Assembly: GCA_945957605.1 (NCBI GenBank)
Contig: CAMFLR010000001.1
Span: 992,001 to 1,056,000 of the forward strand
Length of the DNA: 64,000 nucleotides
From: an uncultured Isosphaeraceae bacterium
Lineage (GTDB): Bacteria > Planctomycetota > Planctomycetia > Isosphaerales > Isosphaeraceae
Direction of reading: 5' to 3'
The notes under the pieces are model-generated. The model had not been told where the DNA came from, searched no databases, and saw only the letters and a list, made by a program, of their open reading frames with translations. This document shows positions 31,255 to 38,406 of this stretch, in pieces (the first letter of the stretch is position 1; the number at the start of each line of letters is the position of its first letter). Both the position numbers and the translations under genes were made by a program.

Positions 31255-31299
31255 GTCTCTCAGCCGATCAATCCGAACGGGATGGGACGGACCCCAACC

Positions 31300-34071
31300 A
31301 TGTCGCATCTGATGCGCGTCTTGCTATTGATCGCAATGATTTGCCTGGCCGGAAACATCCAGGCCGCCGATCCGCTCGCAGTCCCGGCGCCCCCGCGCGG
31401 ACCGGGCGTATTTGGTCAGTTCACACTTCCTGACGCCTGGGAAGCGCGATTCTGGGACGACGCCGATACCAAGGCGTTGCTCAAGCTTGATGCAAAAGCG
31501 CTGGCGGCGCTCGTGCCGGTTCAAGCCGGTCTGCGATTCTGCCGCTGCCCGGCCTGTGACGCCGACGAAGCGGCTGACCCGCTGATCTGGTCGGCGACGA
31601 AGCCCGAATCGCTCACCTGCAGCCGGTGCGGGCAGTCGTTTCCCAACGAAAAAATCCCCGAGAAAAAAGACAAGAAAGTCCCCGAGGACACCGTCGAAGT
31701 CCTAGCGGGAAAGACGCATCACTACCCGTATCATCAGGTCGCTGAAGACGCGCGAAAGTACCCCGACGAAAGACTCTACCTCGACGCCAAACGCGATTAC
31801 GAAACCCGCGAAGCCCTGGCGAAAGCCGCGCTTTACGCTGCGGTCCGGTTTCACGAACGAAAGCAAACGAAGCCAGATCCCGCGCTAGCTCGGTTCGCGG
31901 CAATCATCATCCTCCGATTCGCGCAGGTTTATCCGGCTTACGCCACGCACTTTGACCAGCCGAATCAGCCCAAATTTCTCCAGCCGGCGAATCTGAAGCC
32001 GCCCTATCGCCGGGCCTATCGGACGGGCAAGTGGGAATGGGTGGCGAGCCTTGATGTACCGCTCAACCTAGTCACAGCTTATGCGTTGATTCGCGACGAA
32101 CCAGTGTGGGATGAGATTGGCAAGTTGCTCGCCGATCCCAACCCGCGCCGCACGATCGAGCACGGCTTTTTTCGCGCTTCGGCGGAGTTCGTGCGACTTC
32201 AGCCCGAAGAGTTCGATGAGATGTCGCTGCAAGCGTATCGCGGCTTGTTCGCGGTCGGGCGATTGCTCGAGGATCCGCAACTTCTCGCCGAGGCTCAAGT
32301 GCGGCTCACGCAGTTCGCCGAGCGGGCGTTCTATCACGATGGTTACTGGCGTGATGGTAATGCGATTGCGCACCGGCGCATCGTCGAGCAACTCGACGGC
32401 TGGATCGAACGCCTCGCACGCGGTGAGCCCGAGCCGGCCGAAGTGATGGGGCTGGGCGCAACGGGCCGTCCGGCGACTACGCTCGCCAACGCGCTACCGA
32501 TGATTGAACTCATTCGGCAAGCGCAGGCCGGCCAGCTCGAAAACTCCGTCGCACCCGAGGTCGTTCAAACCACCTGGCCGACGCTCGCGAACAACGGCAA
32601 GAGCCGCCGGCCGGTGTTGCTTGGCGGAGTCGGTGTGGCGCGGCTTTCGGTCGGCGACGATGCCAATGGCCTCGACATCGAGCTGCGTGGAACCGGAAAT
32701 CTCGGCTCCCCCCACTATCAGCGTCAGGCACTGCGGATGAGCGTTGCCGGCAAGACGGTGCTCGACGACCTCGATGACCTGCCGCCGACGCACGACGGCT
32801 GGGATCTGGCGACGCCAAGTCACAACACGGTTGTTGTTGATGGGTTGAATCAGCGCGAGAATCCGATCGCCGCGCGTCAGCCTGCAAGCGGTGGCGAGTT
32901 CCTCTACTTCGCCGCCGATCCCGATTTTCAAGCCGTTGCGCTCGACGACCCCGGCGCCTATCCCCGCTCGACCTCGCGTTACCGCCAGATTGTCGTCGCC
33001 GCGGCAGGAAAGTCGATGCGCTATGGTGTGAGCGTGTTTCAGGTTCATGGCGGCTTGCAGCACGACCAGCTCTTTCACGGTCCGACCGGTGCCATTCCGC
33101 GTTGGCGGACCTCGACGCCAATCGCACCCGGGCCTGAATCGCTCCTGCCGCACAACGTGCCGTACGTCCCCAATCTCAAAGCCGAGGACGGCCGCTGGTT
33201 CGTTCAGGCTTATGGCGAGTTCAGGCGCGTTCTCGAAGGACGCGCGACCACGCCGCTCACCGCAACGCTCGACGCTCCCACTCGTCCTGGAGTGCGTTTG
33301 CACGTCCTCGGTGACATGCCAGTGAACGTTCTCTCGGCACTGACTCCCGACCCGACGCGGACCACTCCGCCCGAGGCTGCGGCCGAGGCGGATGAGGGAC
33401 GCCCCTCGCTCATTCTTCGTCGCCGATCGCCGGCGGGAAGCACGCTTTCATCAACATTCGTCACCGTTTTTGAGCCGATCGCCCCTGGCGTTGCGCCATT
33501 GGTGCGAGTCGGCCGCGTTGCGTCGTCTGCGGACGTGGTTGTGCTTTATATTGAGTCACCCGAGGGCGGCGAGCATCTGGTCGTGAATCTGCGCCCGGGG
33601 CGCGAAATCAGCGCACGCCTGGCCGACGATCGCGTTGCCACGACTGACGGGCTCGTTTTGCGAATCGGCCCGAGCGGACTGCAACTCGCTGGCGGAACTC
33701 ACGCGAGCTGTGGCGGCAGCCAGATTCGCCAGGAACGGCTGACTGGCGCCATTGTTGGTGTAAGCCGCGCCACGGGCGAGGGAACGCGCGGTTGGTTCGA
33801 GGTCGAAGGCCCTGCCGATCAGTTCACTGGTCTCGACGGCCGTGAGATTCTCATTCGCCATGGCGATGGGCCGATTCATGGCTGGACGATTCAGGGGGTC
33901 GAGATTGTTGGCCCGAAGCGCGTGAAGGTCTACGTGCGTGAGGAGCCGGGATTCTTGATCGATCCGGCGACTGGAACCGCTCGCTATTATCAGTTCCCGC
34001 GCCAAATTCAGTCCGGGCCGCACCAGTACACGATCTGCCGGATCTCTCGCGAATTCGCGATCGCACGTTGA
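31300..34071 (+). CDS. Exported heparinase II/III-like protein
   Basis: The roughly 923-residue protein has a signal peptide (MSHLMRVLLLIAMICLAGNI then QAAD). Near residues 75-115 it has two Cys pairs, CRCPACDADE and TCSRCGQSF, forming a likely zinc ribbon. An alpha/alpha toroid-like region (about 130-370) contains HYPYHQ and FDEMSLQAYRGLFAVGR, and a C-terminal beta-sandwich region contains SHNTVVVDGLNQRE as in heparinase II/III-type polysaccharide lyases. The substrate would be an acidic glycan, but this is inferred. Start choice among ATG 31282, 31300 and 31312 is open; none has a strong ribosome site. Confidence 0.75.
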   Translation: MSHLMRVLLLIAMICLAGNIQAADPLAVPAPPRGPGVFGQFTLPDAWEARFWDDADTKALLKLDAKALAALVPVQAGLRFCRCPACDADEAADPLIWSATKPESLTCSRCGQSFPNEKIPEKKDKKVPEDTVEVLAGKTHHYPYHQVAEDARKYPDERLYLDAKRDYETREALAKAALYAAVRFHERKQTKPDPALARFAAIIILRFAQVYPAYATHFDQPNQPKFLQPANLKPPYRRAYRTGKWEWVASLDVPLNLVTAYALIRDEPVWDEIGKLLADPNPRRTIEHGFFRASAEFVRLQPEEFDEMSLQAYRGLFAVGRLLEDPQLLAEAQVRLTQFAERAFYHDGYWRDGNAIAHRRIVEQLDGWIERLARGEPEPAEVMGLGATGRPATTLANALPMIELIRQAQAGQLENSVAPEVVQTTWPTLANNGKSRRPVLLGGVGVARLSVGDDANGLDIELRGTGNLGSPHYQRQALRMSVAGKTVLDDLDDLPPTHDGWDLATPSHNTVVVDGLNQRENPIAARQPASGGEFLYFAADPDFQAVALDDPGAYPRSTSRYRQIVVAAAGKSMRYGVSVFQVHGGLQHDQLFHGPTGAIPRWRTSTPIAPGPESLLPHNVPYVPNLKAEDGRWFVQAYGEFRRVLEGRATTPLTATLDAPTRPGVRLHVLGDMPVNVLSALTPDPTRTTPPEAAAEADEGRPSLILRRRSPAGSTLSSTFVTVFEPIAPGVAPLVRVGRVASSADVVVLYIESPEGGEHLVVNLRPGREISARLADDRVATTDGLVLRIGPSGLQLAGGTHASCGGSQIRQERLTGAIVGVSRATGEGTRGWFEVEGPADQFTGLDGREILIRHGDGPIHGWTIQGVEIVGPKRVKVYVREEPGFLIDPATGTARYYQFPRQIQSGPHQYTICRISREFAIAR

Positions 34072-34107
34072 TTTTTTGCAACACCAAAAAATACCCGACG
34101 CAGATAC

Positions 34108-34135
34108 TTGACATGCATGAACGAAAGGGTATCCT
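34108..34135 (+). promoter_or_regulatory. Candidate sigma70-type promoter
   Basis: TTGACA (34108-34113, perfect -35) is followed after 16 bases by TATCCT (34130-34135, four of six). It lies 37 bases after the heparinase stop, in a region without a convincing gene, and just upstream of two hairpins ending in a T run. Confidence 0.5.
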
Positions 34136-34141
34136 ACGTGT

Positions 34142-34265
34142 GTCGTCTGGTAACGCGTCTCTTGAACGCCTCTCCCTTTCGACCGAGGCATCGGCCTCGT
34201 TCATTCGCTCTATTTCGATACGCCCCGCCGCTCCGGTATCCTGGACGGCGGGGTTATTGTTTTTC
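34142..34265 (+). ncRNA. Candidate small RNA between promoter and terminator
   Basis: Transcription from the promoter just upstream would start near 34142. The segment holds a 6-bp tetraloop hairpin, CGAGGC (34184-34189) and GCCTCG (34194-34199), and ends at a strong rho-independent terminator. The expected product is about 120 bases. Open frames here are short and unlike known proteins. It could instead be the leader of the downstream gene or simply the heparinase terminator region; expression evidence is lacking. Confidence 0.35.
34224..34265 (+). terminator. Rho-independent terminator
   Basis: CCCCGCCG (34224-34231) pairs with CGGCGGGG (34247-34254) in a perfect 8-bp GC stem, with a 15-base loop and the T-rich tail TTATTGTTTTT. 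It terminates either the heparinase transcript or the candidate small RNA. Confidence 0.75.
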
Positions 34266-34300
34266 TGAGCGCAAGCTTTTCACCATCGCCGGGCCGATAC

Positions 34301-34951
34301 ATGACGTCGCGCTGGACCGGAAGTGGGCCAGATTTCGAGCTGGCTTGGGGTAATCAAGTCTGGCGCCTGGAGCTTGGCAATCCGCGGCCGGGTCTCATTG
34401 AGACATCGAGCAATTCCGGGCCACTTCTGTCGCTGCATGCGGTTACCGATCCCGCGCGGGTCGATCGCGTCGCTTTTGCTCCGGGCGCGCTGCAGAGCTA
34501 CGAGGCACGATTCGACTTCGTCGAGGCCCTCTACATCCCCGCTGGATGGCACTCGCTTCGTGTCCGTGCCCGCTGGATCGCCCCGAGCACGGCACTCGAC
34601 ACGCTCGACCTCGAAGTGCAACTTCAGGCCGACACGGTCGATGAATTGCAGTCCGTCGGCGTGTCCATTCTTAGCATGATCATTAATCCGGCCCGGCCGG
34701 CAAAGCACGTCTTGCTATCAACCGCCGCGACGCGCCATTACCTGCAGATGAGTCATCCCGACGACACATGCGGTGATGATTCCGTTTCGAGTGAAGGTGC
34801 CGAGACGTCACTGTTTGGCTACGATCTTGAGCGTGGCGTAGTGCTCCGCGGCCGGCTGCGCGGGGTCTCGCTTTCGAGCGAGCCGACCGCCGAATTTGTG
34901 ACGCAACAACTTGAAGAGTTTATTGCGGCTCCGCCGCCTCTCGGTCCATAA
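34301..34951 (+). CDS. Hypothetical protein, probably beta-rich
   Basis: The 216-residue protein has no signal peptide and no family I recognise. It is rich in Leu, Val and charged residues in an alternating pattern typical of beta-strands, for example SLRVRARWIAPSTALDTLDL and VQLQADTVDELQSVG. It starts 35 bases after a terminator and has only a weak ribosome site. Its position between a heparinase-like and a GH15-like gene suggests a carbohydrate-related role, but nothing in the sequence proves it. Confidence 0.6.
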   Translation: MTSRWTGSGPDFELAWGNQVWRLELGNPRPGLIETSSNSGPLLSLHAVTDPARVDRVAFAPGALQSYEARFDFVEALYIPAGWHSLRVRARWIAPSTALDTLDLEVQLQADTVDELQSVGVSILSMIINPARPAKHVLLSTAATRHYLQMSHPDDTCGDDSVSSEGAETSLFGYDLERGVVLRGRLRGVSLSSEPTAEFVTQQLEEFIAAPPPLGP

Positions 34952-35664: not shown

Positions 35665-38406
35665 TTATCCCCATGCCCACTCCGCCTGCGTTGTTCCTTC
35701 GGGCAGCGTAACCATCCACTTCACTCGCCCCGAGCCAGCTTGGAATTGTGGCGGAGGGCCGACGATGTTGCCGTGCCAGGGGCCGAGTTCGGTAAGCCCG
35801 GGACAGGTGACGTCTACCTCGAGCAAAACTGGGCAATTCAACTTCGCCGACACGCCCAATCGATGCACCGATCCGCCAACCGGGCGATCGAGACGGAACG
35901 CGACGTCGCCACAGGGGAATTTCTGGTTCAGTCCAATCGACGGCCATGAATTGGGCAATGCGGGAGAGAGTCTCAAGCGACGCGCGGGGGCGTTGTATTC
36001 GAGACCCGGGAAGTCGAGCATCGTTTCGATGAGGCTCGCGTGCAGTTCCCACACGCCGTTCGATGCCAGCGGCGAGTAGCGTGGAAGTTCGCCCGAACGC
36101 GGAGCCGATCGCAGCGCGAGCCCGAGTGAGCCGATCCGATTCAGGATTGCGTCGAGCATGGCGACTGCAAGATTCCAGTGGCGCCCTTCGCCGGTCTCGC
36201 GTCCCAGTCGCACAAGGTAGCGCGACATCCAGAGTGTCGCGAGGCTCGAAACGTCGAGCGAATGAATTTCACTGGGTGCCACCGAGTTCTGCTGACGCTT
36301 CGGATCAGGCGACCAGATGGTGAGCAAGTTGGGTTCGCTCGGCTTGACGTTGTGCCCGAAAATCCCCTCGGCGCAGCGGAAGATGTTGATCTGACTGGCG
36401 TCCAGCAGCCCGAACGGAACCACCAAACCGAGAAGGCTGATGTCGTAAGCAGCGGATCGGTCGAGCAGGAAAGCTGGGTTGTCGGTCCACTGGCCGCGGA
36501 GCGTCGAAAGATAGCGGGCCTCGTAGAACCGCCCGGTGTCAGGGTCGATCATCCCGGGGCCGCTGCGATCGACCGGCTCGCGCATGATCCCTTCGTGCCA
36601 GATCCGGTCGGCGAAGTCAGACCAGCGCGACGCCGAGGCATCGTGATTGACGGCAAACGCAAGCCGTGCAGCAGCACGCAGTCCCGCGACGACGCTTGCG
36701 TTCGAGTAGAGAAACGCGCCAAAACGGCTGTCCCAGACGCCGGCTGAACTGATGAGTGACAGCTCTTCGATCAGCTTGAGACCTGGATGGCCCGAAACTC
36801 CCATGCAGACGTTCGCCGAGCGCTCGATCAGCGGCCAGTGCCGCGCGACGAAATCGAGATCGCCCGTGCGTTCGTAATACTGCTCCATCCGCCAGGGGAC
36901 CATCGCGGTCGGGTCGACAGCTGGAGTTTCCCACTCGGGATAACCATCAATTGTGTATTTTTGGAATAAATAGGCATATGAACCCTTATGCCCTTTCACT
37001 GATCCTAGCCAGTCGAACGCCGCGCGGCTGAGGTCGGCGTGGTTGATGCGTTCGAATGCGCTCGCGGTCGAAAGTGCATTGCGGGGCCAGCAATAAGCAC
37101 TCAAACCACGGTCGAATCCCGCGGCGATTGCGCCGTTTTCTGCGTCGGCATGAAGTGCGGCGGCGAGTGCCGAACGCCGCAGGCTGACGGCATAAGTCGG
37201 CTTGGGAAAATGGATGTTTGGAATCGGCTCGATGTAAGTATCCCACTCCTGCGCGGTCGCTTGCTCAACCTGATCGAGATCGACCGAGCGAAACCACTCA
37301 AGTGCAGGTTTGAGCCAGTGCTCGAAGGTTCCCGCGTCGCCACGCCAGCCGGTGAACGCGCCGCTGACGAGCAAATCGACGACGATTGATTGTCCGGCGG
37401 GAACATGGAGCGGACGGTGGAGAATCGCCTCGTTACTGCCGGTCGGCTCACATTCGGTTTGACCGCGATCATCGAACGCGACAGCGAATTCAACGGTCGC
37501 ATCACGCGCGAGTTTTCGGTTTGTGTGGCCGTGGCCGCGATTCGTGGCGAGCAGCGCCCGCCCTTCGTCTTTCCAACTCAAACCGGGCTCGCCGATTCCG
37601 CCGTTGACCTCGCTTTGAATGAACACAGCGAACGATGTGTTCAAATCAGTGGCGCCGTCGTTGATGATTCGGAATCGCTTGATGTATTGCCCGGGTGACT
37701 CGGTTCCACCGACCGTTTTGGGCAGGCTTGAACCCATCGCCACAAGGTCGGTGATGAGCACGCGAAGCGGGCCACTCCGCCAGCTTAGCTCGGTTACGAG
37801 CAGGTTCGTTGCCCCCTGGTAGTGCTGAAACACCTGCCAGGCGAGGCGTTCGCTGAACCAATCGAGACGGTGGCGTACGGCGAGGCCGCCGATGATCGCG
37901 CGGAAATGCGCGCGGCTTTGCGGTAGATCGCCTTCAGCAGGGCGAACGTCGGAATGAAGTCCCACGGTTGGGAAGTAAATGTCCTGCGTCGAGCCGCGGC
38001 CGTCGACGCGCACCGTCATTTCGCGATTGCCGACGAACCCTTCGTGCCCGACGCCGACGATCTCAGGCGTTTCGCGACGATCGGGAAGATTCGCACGGAC
38101 GACGGTGTCCTGAAACGGGCTATAAACGAGATTGCCGTTCTGGACTCGTGCCACCGACCGATAGTGCAGCCGCGCACCGACCGCTTGCGGCGGAATCGGC
38201 ACGTGCCAGTGGCTATTCACGCCACGATTCTCGGTCCAGTAAGCTGGGAGTGGGCCAAGAGTTATGTCATCGGCCGTGAGTTCGAGCCAGACCTCCTGCC
38301 CCTCTTCGATAGGGTGAGTACCCAGCACGACGGTGCACCATCCGCCTGCGCGGACGGGTCCACCATTCCGGCCTTTGGCGGCCGTTTCGATCCAGGTCGA
38401 CTCCAT
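35665..38406 (-). CDS. GH15 glucoamylase-like protein
   Basis: The 913-residue protein has an N-terminal beta-sandwich region (about 1-370) and a C-terminal alpha/alpha barrel (about 400-870). The barrel carries GFDRGLSAYCWPRNALSTA near residue 435, YLFQKYTIDGYPEW, and SSAGVWDSRFGAFLYSNASV near residue 556. These correspond to blocks of GH15 glucoamylases, which cleave alpha-glucosidic bonds. Two positions look altered: WPRN where WPRD is usual, and W-D where a Trp-Glu carries the general acid. There is no signal peptide, so it may act in the cytoplasm. It diverges from the sugar isomerase gene. Confidence 0.78.
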   Translation of the reverse strand: MESTWIETAAKGRNGGPVRAGGWCTVVLGTHPIEEGQEVWLELTADDITLGPLPAYWTENRGVNSHWHVPIPPQAVGARLHYRSVARVQNGNLVYSPFQDTVVRANLPDRRETPEIVGVGHEGFVGNREMTVRVDGRGSTQDIYFPTVGLHSDVRPAEGDLPQSRAHFRAIIGGLAVRHRLDWFSERLAWQVFQHYQGATNLLVTELSWRSGPLRVLITDLVAMGSSLPKTVGGTESPGQYIKRFRIINDGATDLNTSFAVFIQSEVNGGIGEPGLSWKDEGRALLATNRGHGHTNRKLARDATVEFAVAFDDRGQTECEPTGSNEAILHRPLHVPAGQSIVVDLLVSGAFTGWRGDAGTFEHWLKPALEWFRSVDLDQVEQATAQEWDTYIEPIPNIHFPKPTYAVSLRRSALAAALHADAENGAIAAGFDRGLSAYCWPRNALSTASAFERINHADLSRAAFDWLGSVKGHKGSYAYLFQKYTIDGYPEWETPAVDPTAMVPWRMEQYYERTGDLDFVARHWPLIERSANVCMGVSGHPGLKLIEELSLISSAGVWDSRFGAFLYSNASVVAGLRAAARLAFAVNHDASASRWSDFADRIWHEGIMREPVDRSGPGMIDPDTGRFYEARYLSTLRGQWTDNPAFLLDRSAAYDISLLGLVVPFGLLDASQINIFRCAEGIFGHNVKPSEPNLLTIWSPDPKRQQNSVAPSEIHSLDVSSLATLWMSRYLVRLGRETGEGRHWNLAVAMLDAILNRIGSLGLALRSAPRSGELPRYSPLASNGVWELHASLIETMLDFPGLEYNAPARRLRLSPALPNSWPSIGLNQKFPCGDVAFRLDRPVGGSVHRLGVSAKLNCPVLLEVDVTCPGLTELGPWHGNIVGPPPQFQAGSGRVKWMVTLPEGTTQAEWAWG

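Follow-up and report, generated by a model that had tools for sequence, protein, structure and literature searches.

Decoy RNAs of the CsrB/RsmZ type titrate CsrA/RsmA through repeated sites. Such decoys are named in a passage of PMC4063720, which describes CrcZ of Pseudomonas aeruginosa, a decoy RNA with repeated motifs and an RpoN-dependent promoter. In Caulobacter crescentus, according to PMC12559287, the non-coding RNA CrfA inactivates the small RNAs SisA-D by base pairing, with a nutrient signal involved. A candidate structured RNA from Planctomycetes, the Rhodopirellula-1 motif, is recorded for Proteobacteria as well and classed as cis-regulatory in PMC2864571. The passage of PMC12316311 that deals with sigma54-dependent csrA in Pirellula mentions no small RNAs. 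No planctomycete small RNA was described in the titles and abstract openings of the literature searched, and the core strings given below occurred in no paper text searched, most subscription journals lying outside both searches.

Here we describe RNA1, a conserved, structured, non-coding transcription unit, in a window of 64,000 nt from an uncultured Isosphaeraceae bacterium and in its relatives.

A conserved, structured and non-coding transcription unit

The initial annotation had proposed a candidate small RNA of about 120 bases, on the basis of a promoter with a perfect -35 box followed by a stable tetraloop hairpin and a strong terminator. All of these parts are present (Table 1). The -35 box is TTGACA (34108-34113) and the -10 box TATCCT (34130-34135), separated by a spacer of 16 nt; judging by the -10 box and a conserved GTCG, transcription would start at 34142. 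In the window, P1 is made of GUCG/CGAC plus the pair 34149-34176, its three inner pairs being broken, and the terminator is a GC-rich stem-loop followed by TTATTGTTTTT.

Table 1. Features of the RNA1 locus in the window
Feature	Position	Strand	Evidence
RNA1 promoter	34108..34135	+	consensus scan; TTGAC in register in 18/19 aligned family loci
RNA1, predicted transcript of ~120 nt, ends inferred	34142..34264	+	fold z -4.71; conserved structure; model R1
P1 helix, 34142-34149 with 34176-34183	34142..34183	+	6/8 pairs change on both sides (16 sequences)
P2 tetraloop hairpin, CGAGGC-AUCG-GCCUCG	34184..34199	+	all cells of its 6 pairs are paired; two-sided changes in 3
Linker, place of the class-wide core	34200..34221	+	degenerate in the window: at most 11/18 core positions
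P3 intrinsic terminator with T-tract	34222..34264	+	16 pairs, 10 with two-sided changes
Gene D, 216-aa beta-sandwich protein	34301..34951	+	often 3' of RNA1 in relatives: 24/31 family loci, 60/90 class D places

The annotation had itself cautioned that this alone might be due to chance and had called the combination suggestive. Between 33000 and 35500, the scan returned one promoter-like site against a shuffle mean of 0.7 and four terminator-like sites against 2.5 in shuffles; being at chance level, these matches are uninformative by themselves. Fold and conservation go beyond chance. The 124 nt from 34142 to 34265 fold at -50.3 kcal/mol versus -34.4 +/- 3.4 (z = -4.71), a value equalled by none of 200 shuffles.

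Conservation in related genomes, which the annotation had named as a check, was indeed found. A DNA search of 59 genomes matched 11, the window genome included; the sister species is 73% identical across ~115 nt (E = 1.8e-8), and the matches elsewhere are short stretches. The aligned family loci represent one RNA, with the TTGAC box, a TA-type -10 box, a start near GTCG, the hairpin, a pyrimidine-rich linker and the terminator. All three helices covary among 16 aligned RNAs: standard pairs occupy 94.4% of 478 pair cells versus 86.5% in shuffles (0/500), and a control in which the partners were slid gave 30-47% pairing (maximum 46.6%). Model R1, seeded with 16 loci (L018, L020 and L022 excluded), matched 40 of the 45 genomes of the family (E <= 0.01). 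One R1 place below 1e-14 exists in each of 31 family genomes, 16 of these strong loci being the seed of R1 itself. Together, fold and conserved parts support the view that this stretch of the window is a conserved small RNA or leader. Further, weaker RNA1-like matches lie elsewhere in some Isosphaeraceae (G030:C202, L115; G016:C183, L119; G018:C170, L122; G019:C3, L116; G031:C135, L118).

The upstream gene (31282-34071), labelled heparinase in the annotation, stops 37 nt 5' of the -35 box. Taken with the chance level of the consensus scan, this proximity would agree with the possibility, already raised in the annotation, that the hairpin belongs only to the 3' end of the heparinase mRNA, or else with a chance promoter and terminator and no RNA gene. 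Against this stand the covarying helices and a conserved promoter that lies 3' of the stop codon; moreover, of the 31 strong loci, 14 have a homologue of the upstream gene whose end lies no more than 250 nt 5' of RNA1, and the other 17 have none at that position. We consider the absence of an RNA gene very improbable. The gene labelled heparinase matched no Pfam family; its residues 88-134 gave a zinc-binding match in NCBIfam that was below cut-off.

It is hardly credible that the stretch encodes a short protein. Open reading frames of 66 codons (34068-34268) and 81 codons (34108-34353) do cross it. They have no Pfam match, RNA1 lengths in relatives cover all three values modulo 3, the reading frame slips along the alignment of the window genome with its sister species, and stops are present in relatives. 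By frame and stop analysis and the absent Pfam match, RNA1 is non-coding, in line with the annotation, which had seen no plausible protein gene here. Rfam 15 gave no matches at gathering threshold in the window and none at E <= 5 in 34060-34310; on the 16 relative RNA1 loci its matches lay only outside the RNA and below gathering, and the 6S RNA family was not matched.

The class-wide core and a second RNA complementary to it

In most relatives the linker position is occupied by a nearly invariant core, GCCUCUUCUCUGUUCCGGCCCC, that runs into the terminator: its first part is unpaired and its last bases form the terminator 5' arm. Within the family, the core is intact (at least 17/18 positions) in 21 of the 31 loci and degenerate (at most 12/18) in 10, among which are both genomes of the window's genus.

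In most relatives, GGCCTCTTCTCTGTTCCGGCC precedes the terminator. A scan of contigs for this string matched at least 120 stretches, of which 80 were examined; all are titled planctomycete except L145, titled only 'bacterium'. Of 79 informative contigs, 77 have a stem with a T-rich tail directly 3' of the core, recognised by script in 70 and by eye in 7. L146, L193 and L252 were set aside as 21-mer matches without terminator, and the stretch of L172 is cut off. A promoter-like pair was found within 180 nt 5' of the core in 53/69 loci versus 1/69 control stretches; the distance from the -10 end to the core was 8-21 nt in 15 loci and 40-145 nt in 38. The short arrangements include those of Gemmataceae, where RNA1 is ~65 nt long, the locus being reduced to promoter, core and terminator, and where the first G of the core is variable. 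Of 248 Planctomycetia genomes, 141 matched model R2 (core plus terminator), usually at a single place and at four at most, 7 of the 141 being weak matches in family f2. The terminator next to the core covaries among the class loci as well. The exact 21-mer occurred in 9 of 392 phylum genomes drawn, namely 8 Planctomycetia and G095, in which it lacks a terminator. By sequence and conservation, RNA1 is a short discrete unit that has a promoter and an intrinsic terminator of its own.

Two side observations concern this wider set. In genus g305 (L293 and L294) the core is three bases shorter, GCCTCTTTGTTCCGG. In the Pirellulales-type loci L125-L203, RNA1 usually has a divergent gene upstream; these genes form one family with 40 members, which by its motif resembles an inositol monophosphatase.

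A search for the complement of the core uncovered a second conserved RNA, RNA2, in Pirellulaceae, Gemmataceae and related families. The complement ACAGAGAAGAGG occurred in 60/60 RNA1 genomes at RNA1 itself, and it recurred at a second place in two genera of Pirellulaceae and in individual genomes from other families. The stretch around that second place is mostly without long reading frames, starts with TTGGCACG-N4-TTGC and ends in an intrinsic terminator. We take its TGGCAC-N5-TTGC-like start to be a sigma54-type promoter motif. RNA2 complements both core halves, GCCUCUUC and CCGGCCCC, the latter of which includes the terminator 5' arm. Pirellulales-type RNA2s carry 2-4 AGAGG sites in 14/14 cases versus 0.2-0.5 in shuffles; the Gemmataceae type has one complementary site in 19/20.

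The promoter-linked RNA2 pattern was present in 46/248 genomes (3 of the 46 in f2) versus 5 matches of the reversed control. From these, 11 places lacking the GGGGC[CT]GG block or a second site were dropped as probable chance (G448, G544, G610, G461, G566, G564, G504, G037, G604:C314, G520:C180 and G581:C1:4288381); three genomes of genus g304 (L391-L393), with a sigma54-like promoter and GAAGAGG and no such block, were also taken as not RNA2. A promoter-free pattern gave a raw 158/248, which is no evidence alone, as the opposite strand of RNA1 matches it and the reversed control matches many GC-rich genomes. Its Gemmataceae sites mostly read GGGGCTGGAACAGAAGAGGC. Twenty sites were picked among the matches listed, being non-self Gemmataceae (f3) sites, new to the promoter-linked search, with a middle resembling the complement of the core; all 20 carry 8-10 of the 10 TGGCAC-N5-TTGC positions 50-86 nt upstream, at a shuffle frequency of 0 to 0.046. 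At the level of sequence, expression of RNA2 is thus under separate control. Nine of the 20 align across ~200 nt. In Gemmataceae RNA2s (L458-L468), more conserved hairpins lie 3' of the complementary site, one of them having GGA within its loop.

RNA2 therefore combines a sigma54-type promoter with complementarity to the core. Against the core, 34 RNA2s gave duplex energies between -36 and -50 kcal/mol (z between -4.2 and -10.6), computed with a fixed consensus core in place of each genome's own RNA1 and partly circular, because RNA2 had been found by complementarity. RNA1 is present in 57 of 60 RNA2 genomes and 104 of the 248 have neither, an odds ratio of 23.5 that ignores phylogeny and includes calls by eye; the 60 comprise 38 promoter-linked genomes (by eye), the 20 promoter-free ones, G536, and G041, whose site lacks the GGGGC[CT]GG block. 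By the patterns used, 84 RNA1-positive genomes had no RNA2. None was found in the window genome with either pattern, nor in any of 32 genomes of the window's family with the promoter-linked one; a looser pattern matched 13/38 genomes there versus 24/38 for the reversed control. A search for a partner compensating the three-base core loss in g305 was negative: the sole non-self copy of the expected complement (G538:C32) is without a sigma54-type promoter.

With gathering and permissive thresholds, Rfam gave no credible family for the RNA1 and RNA2 loci. A microRNA match at L475 (E = 1.7e-5) was rejected as an inverted repeat beyond RNA2; at L471 two small-RNA matches below gathering (E = 0.36 and 0.44) overlap the RNA2 stretch.

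The roles of the two RNAs might also be the reverse, with RNA2 as regulator (such as a decoy for CsrA or a regulator of mRNAs) and RNA1 as its antagonist, or both might bind a common protein. GGA lies in predicted hairpin loops of 18/20 Gemmataceae-type RNA2s (0.2-0.6 per shuffled sequence), which usually have one complementary site, and a sigma54-dependent csrA is described for a Pirellula strain in the passage of PMC12316311. The GGA excess is absent from the 14 Pirellulales-type RNA2s examined, with their multiple AGAGG sites, and the match of RNA2 to the whole core, as its near-exact complement, argues for pairing between the two RNAs. We therefore regard these role assignments as quite improbable.

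Gene D and a possible leader function

Gene D starts 36 nt past the T-tract, so RNA1 may also be a terminated leader. D was present in 91/248 class genomes, none of them Gemmataceae (f3); G313, a weak match with internal stops, was dropped. Ninety D places were examined, using part of the R2 matches (most f3 rows omitted) and seven R1 places: in 60, RNA1 lies immediately 5' of D in the same orientation; in 7, the two are separated, in some cases on short contigs; and 23 have no RNA1 match. Upstream of 20 of the latter, which were fetched, the best core-like match covered 11-14 of 21 positions. The D of the window is homologous to that of the Pirellulales-type loci (hmmsearch E = 7.7e-16); no Pfam or NCBIfam model matches it above cut-off. 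Its predicted structure (pLDDT 92.4) is a beta-sandwich resembling galactose mutarotase and glycoside hydrolase domains, with 7vqo (Z = 15.7, rmsd 2.9, 191 aligned) as top match and 3mwx (Z = 13.6, rmsd 3.0, 185 aligned) also matching; such a shared predicted fold shows no function. The family consists of small galactose-mutarotase-like proteins in which E, G, V and R residues and one C-terminal L are invariant. On the minus strand, a 913-aa protein (35665-38406) resembles oligosaccharide amylase/glucoamylase models below curated cut-offs, and a homologue of it lies near RNA1 in 16/31 family stretches.

Among 34 D-adjacent contig loci, the gap between terminator and D (21-288 nt) could be searched in 21, because 13 of the called D starts precede the terminator end. 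A sigma70-like promoter was found in 1 of the 21 gaps, so that D is probably transcribed by reading through the RNA1 terminator. Together with the frequency of D as next gene (Table 1) and the survival of the 5' domain beyond the core in the window's genus, this would agree with RNA1 being mainly a terminated 5' leader, or attenuator, of D, in which binding of a protein, metabolite or RNA sets read-through. However, RNA1 is not bound to one downstream gene. It is whole in G010 and G027, where D is missing and the match to a convergent gene stops 139 nt downstream, and it is kept without D in Gemmataceae, reduced there to promoter, core and terminator; the 23 D places without an RNA1 match tell against a leader too. 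RNA1 thus does not lie directly upstream of a regulated gene throughout, as a riboswitch or attenuator would, and with the upstream homologue in 14/31 and D in 24/31 loci it is strictly tied to neither neighbour. We think it unlikely that RNA1 is mainly a leader, and prefer a base-pairing RNA that often doubles as one.

Proposed mechanism and comparison with known systems

The matching complementary second RNA in many relatives suggests an old RNA switch. The model that we favour, with moderate confidence, is of RNA1 as a base-pairing small RNA and RNA2 as its sigma54-driven sponge, RNA1 often being also the terminated leader of D. Both RNAs would be expressed and would pair in the cell as follows: (i) most members of the RNA1 family would exert their effect by pairing of the core GCCUCUUCUCUGUUCCGGCCCC, (ii) their targets would presumably be mRNAs with purine-rich, ribosome-binding-site-like stretches, (iii) RNA2, with its sigma54-type promoter and one to four complementary sites, would titrate RNA1, (iv) a sigma54 signal would thereby raise RNA2 and relieve RNA1-repressed targets and (v) where D adjoins, it would be transcribed by read-through of the RNA1 terminator. 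Titration of RNA1 under a sigma54 signal fits the presence of several sites per Pirellulales RNA2 and of a different sigma factor.

A further proposal, which we hold to be doubtful, is that the sigma54-driven RNA2 captures RNA1 and, its GGGGC[CU]GG block pairing with CCGGCCCC, acts in trans on nascent RNA1 to open its terminator. If this were true, a second, separate RNA would bring about antitermination at loci with D, and the same pairing would silence or destroy RNA1 at loci lacking D.

For the window copy, the sponge model would be carried over from relatives. Its genus has kept the 5' domain, promoter, terminator and D, and the core has drifted; RNA1 there probably lacks the common pairing function and would serve mainly as leader of D or act on other targets. 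Since the core is degenerate in the window, the pairing role of the family may not hold for this copy, for which the conserved 5' domain and the short distance to D favour a leader role. The window's genus (core lost), the Isosphaeraceae (partner seemingly absent) and the Gemmataceae (D absent) serve as natural experiments for telling a leader function from functions in trans. A mostly single-copy RNA whose core is nearly unchanged across the class, together with a pairing RNA under another sigma factor, offers a handle on planctomycete post-transcriptional control.

The RNA2 model resembles CrfA, as described in the paper cited above, in that one RNA inactivates a small RNA by pairing. It differs in that CrfA belongs to another phylum and is one sponge for four sibling RNAs, whereas here there is usually one RNA1 and an RNA2 with 1-4 sites and a sigma54-type promoter. 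The Rhodopirellula-1 motif and RNA1 are both planctomycete structured-RNA candidates; the former differs in its published description, as cis-regulatory and recorded for Proteobacteria too. RNA2 would share titration by repeated sites with decoys of the CsrB/RsmZ type, which bind CsrA/RsmA, unlike RNA2, whose Pirellulales type has no GGA excess. With CrcZ, as presented in the passage on it, RNA2 has in common repeated motifs and RpoN/sigma54-type control; the A-rich repeats of CrcZ capture the protein Hfq, whereas those of RNA2 complement a small RNA.
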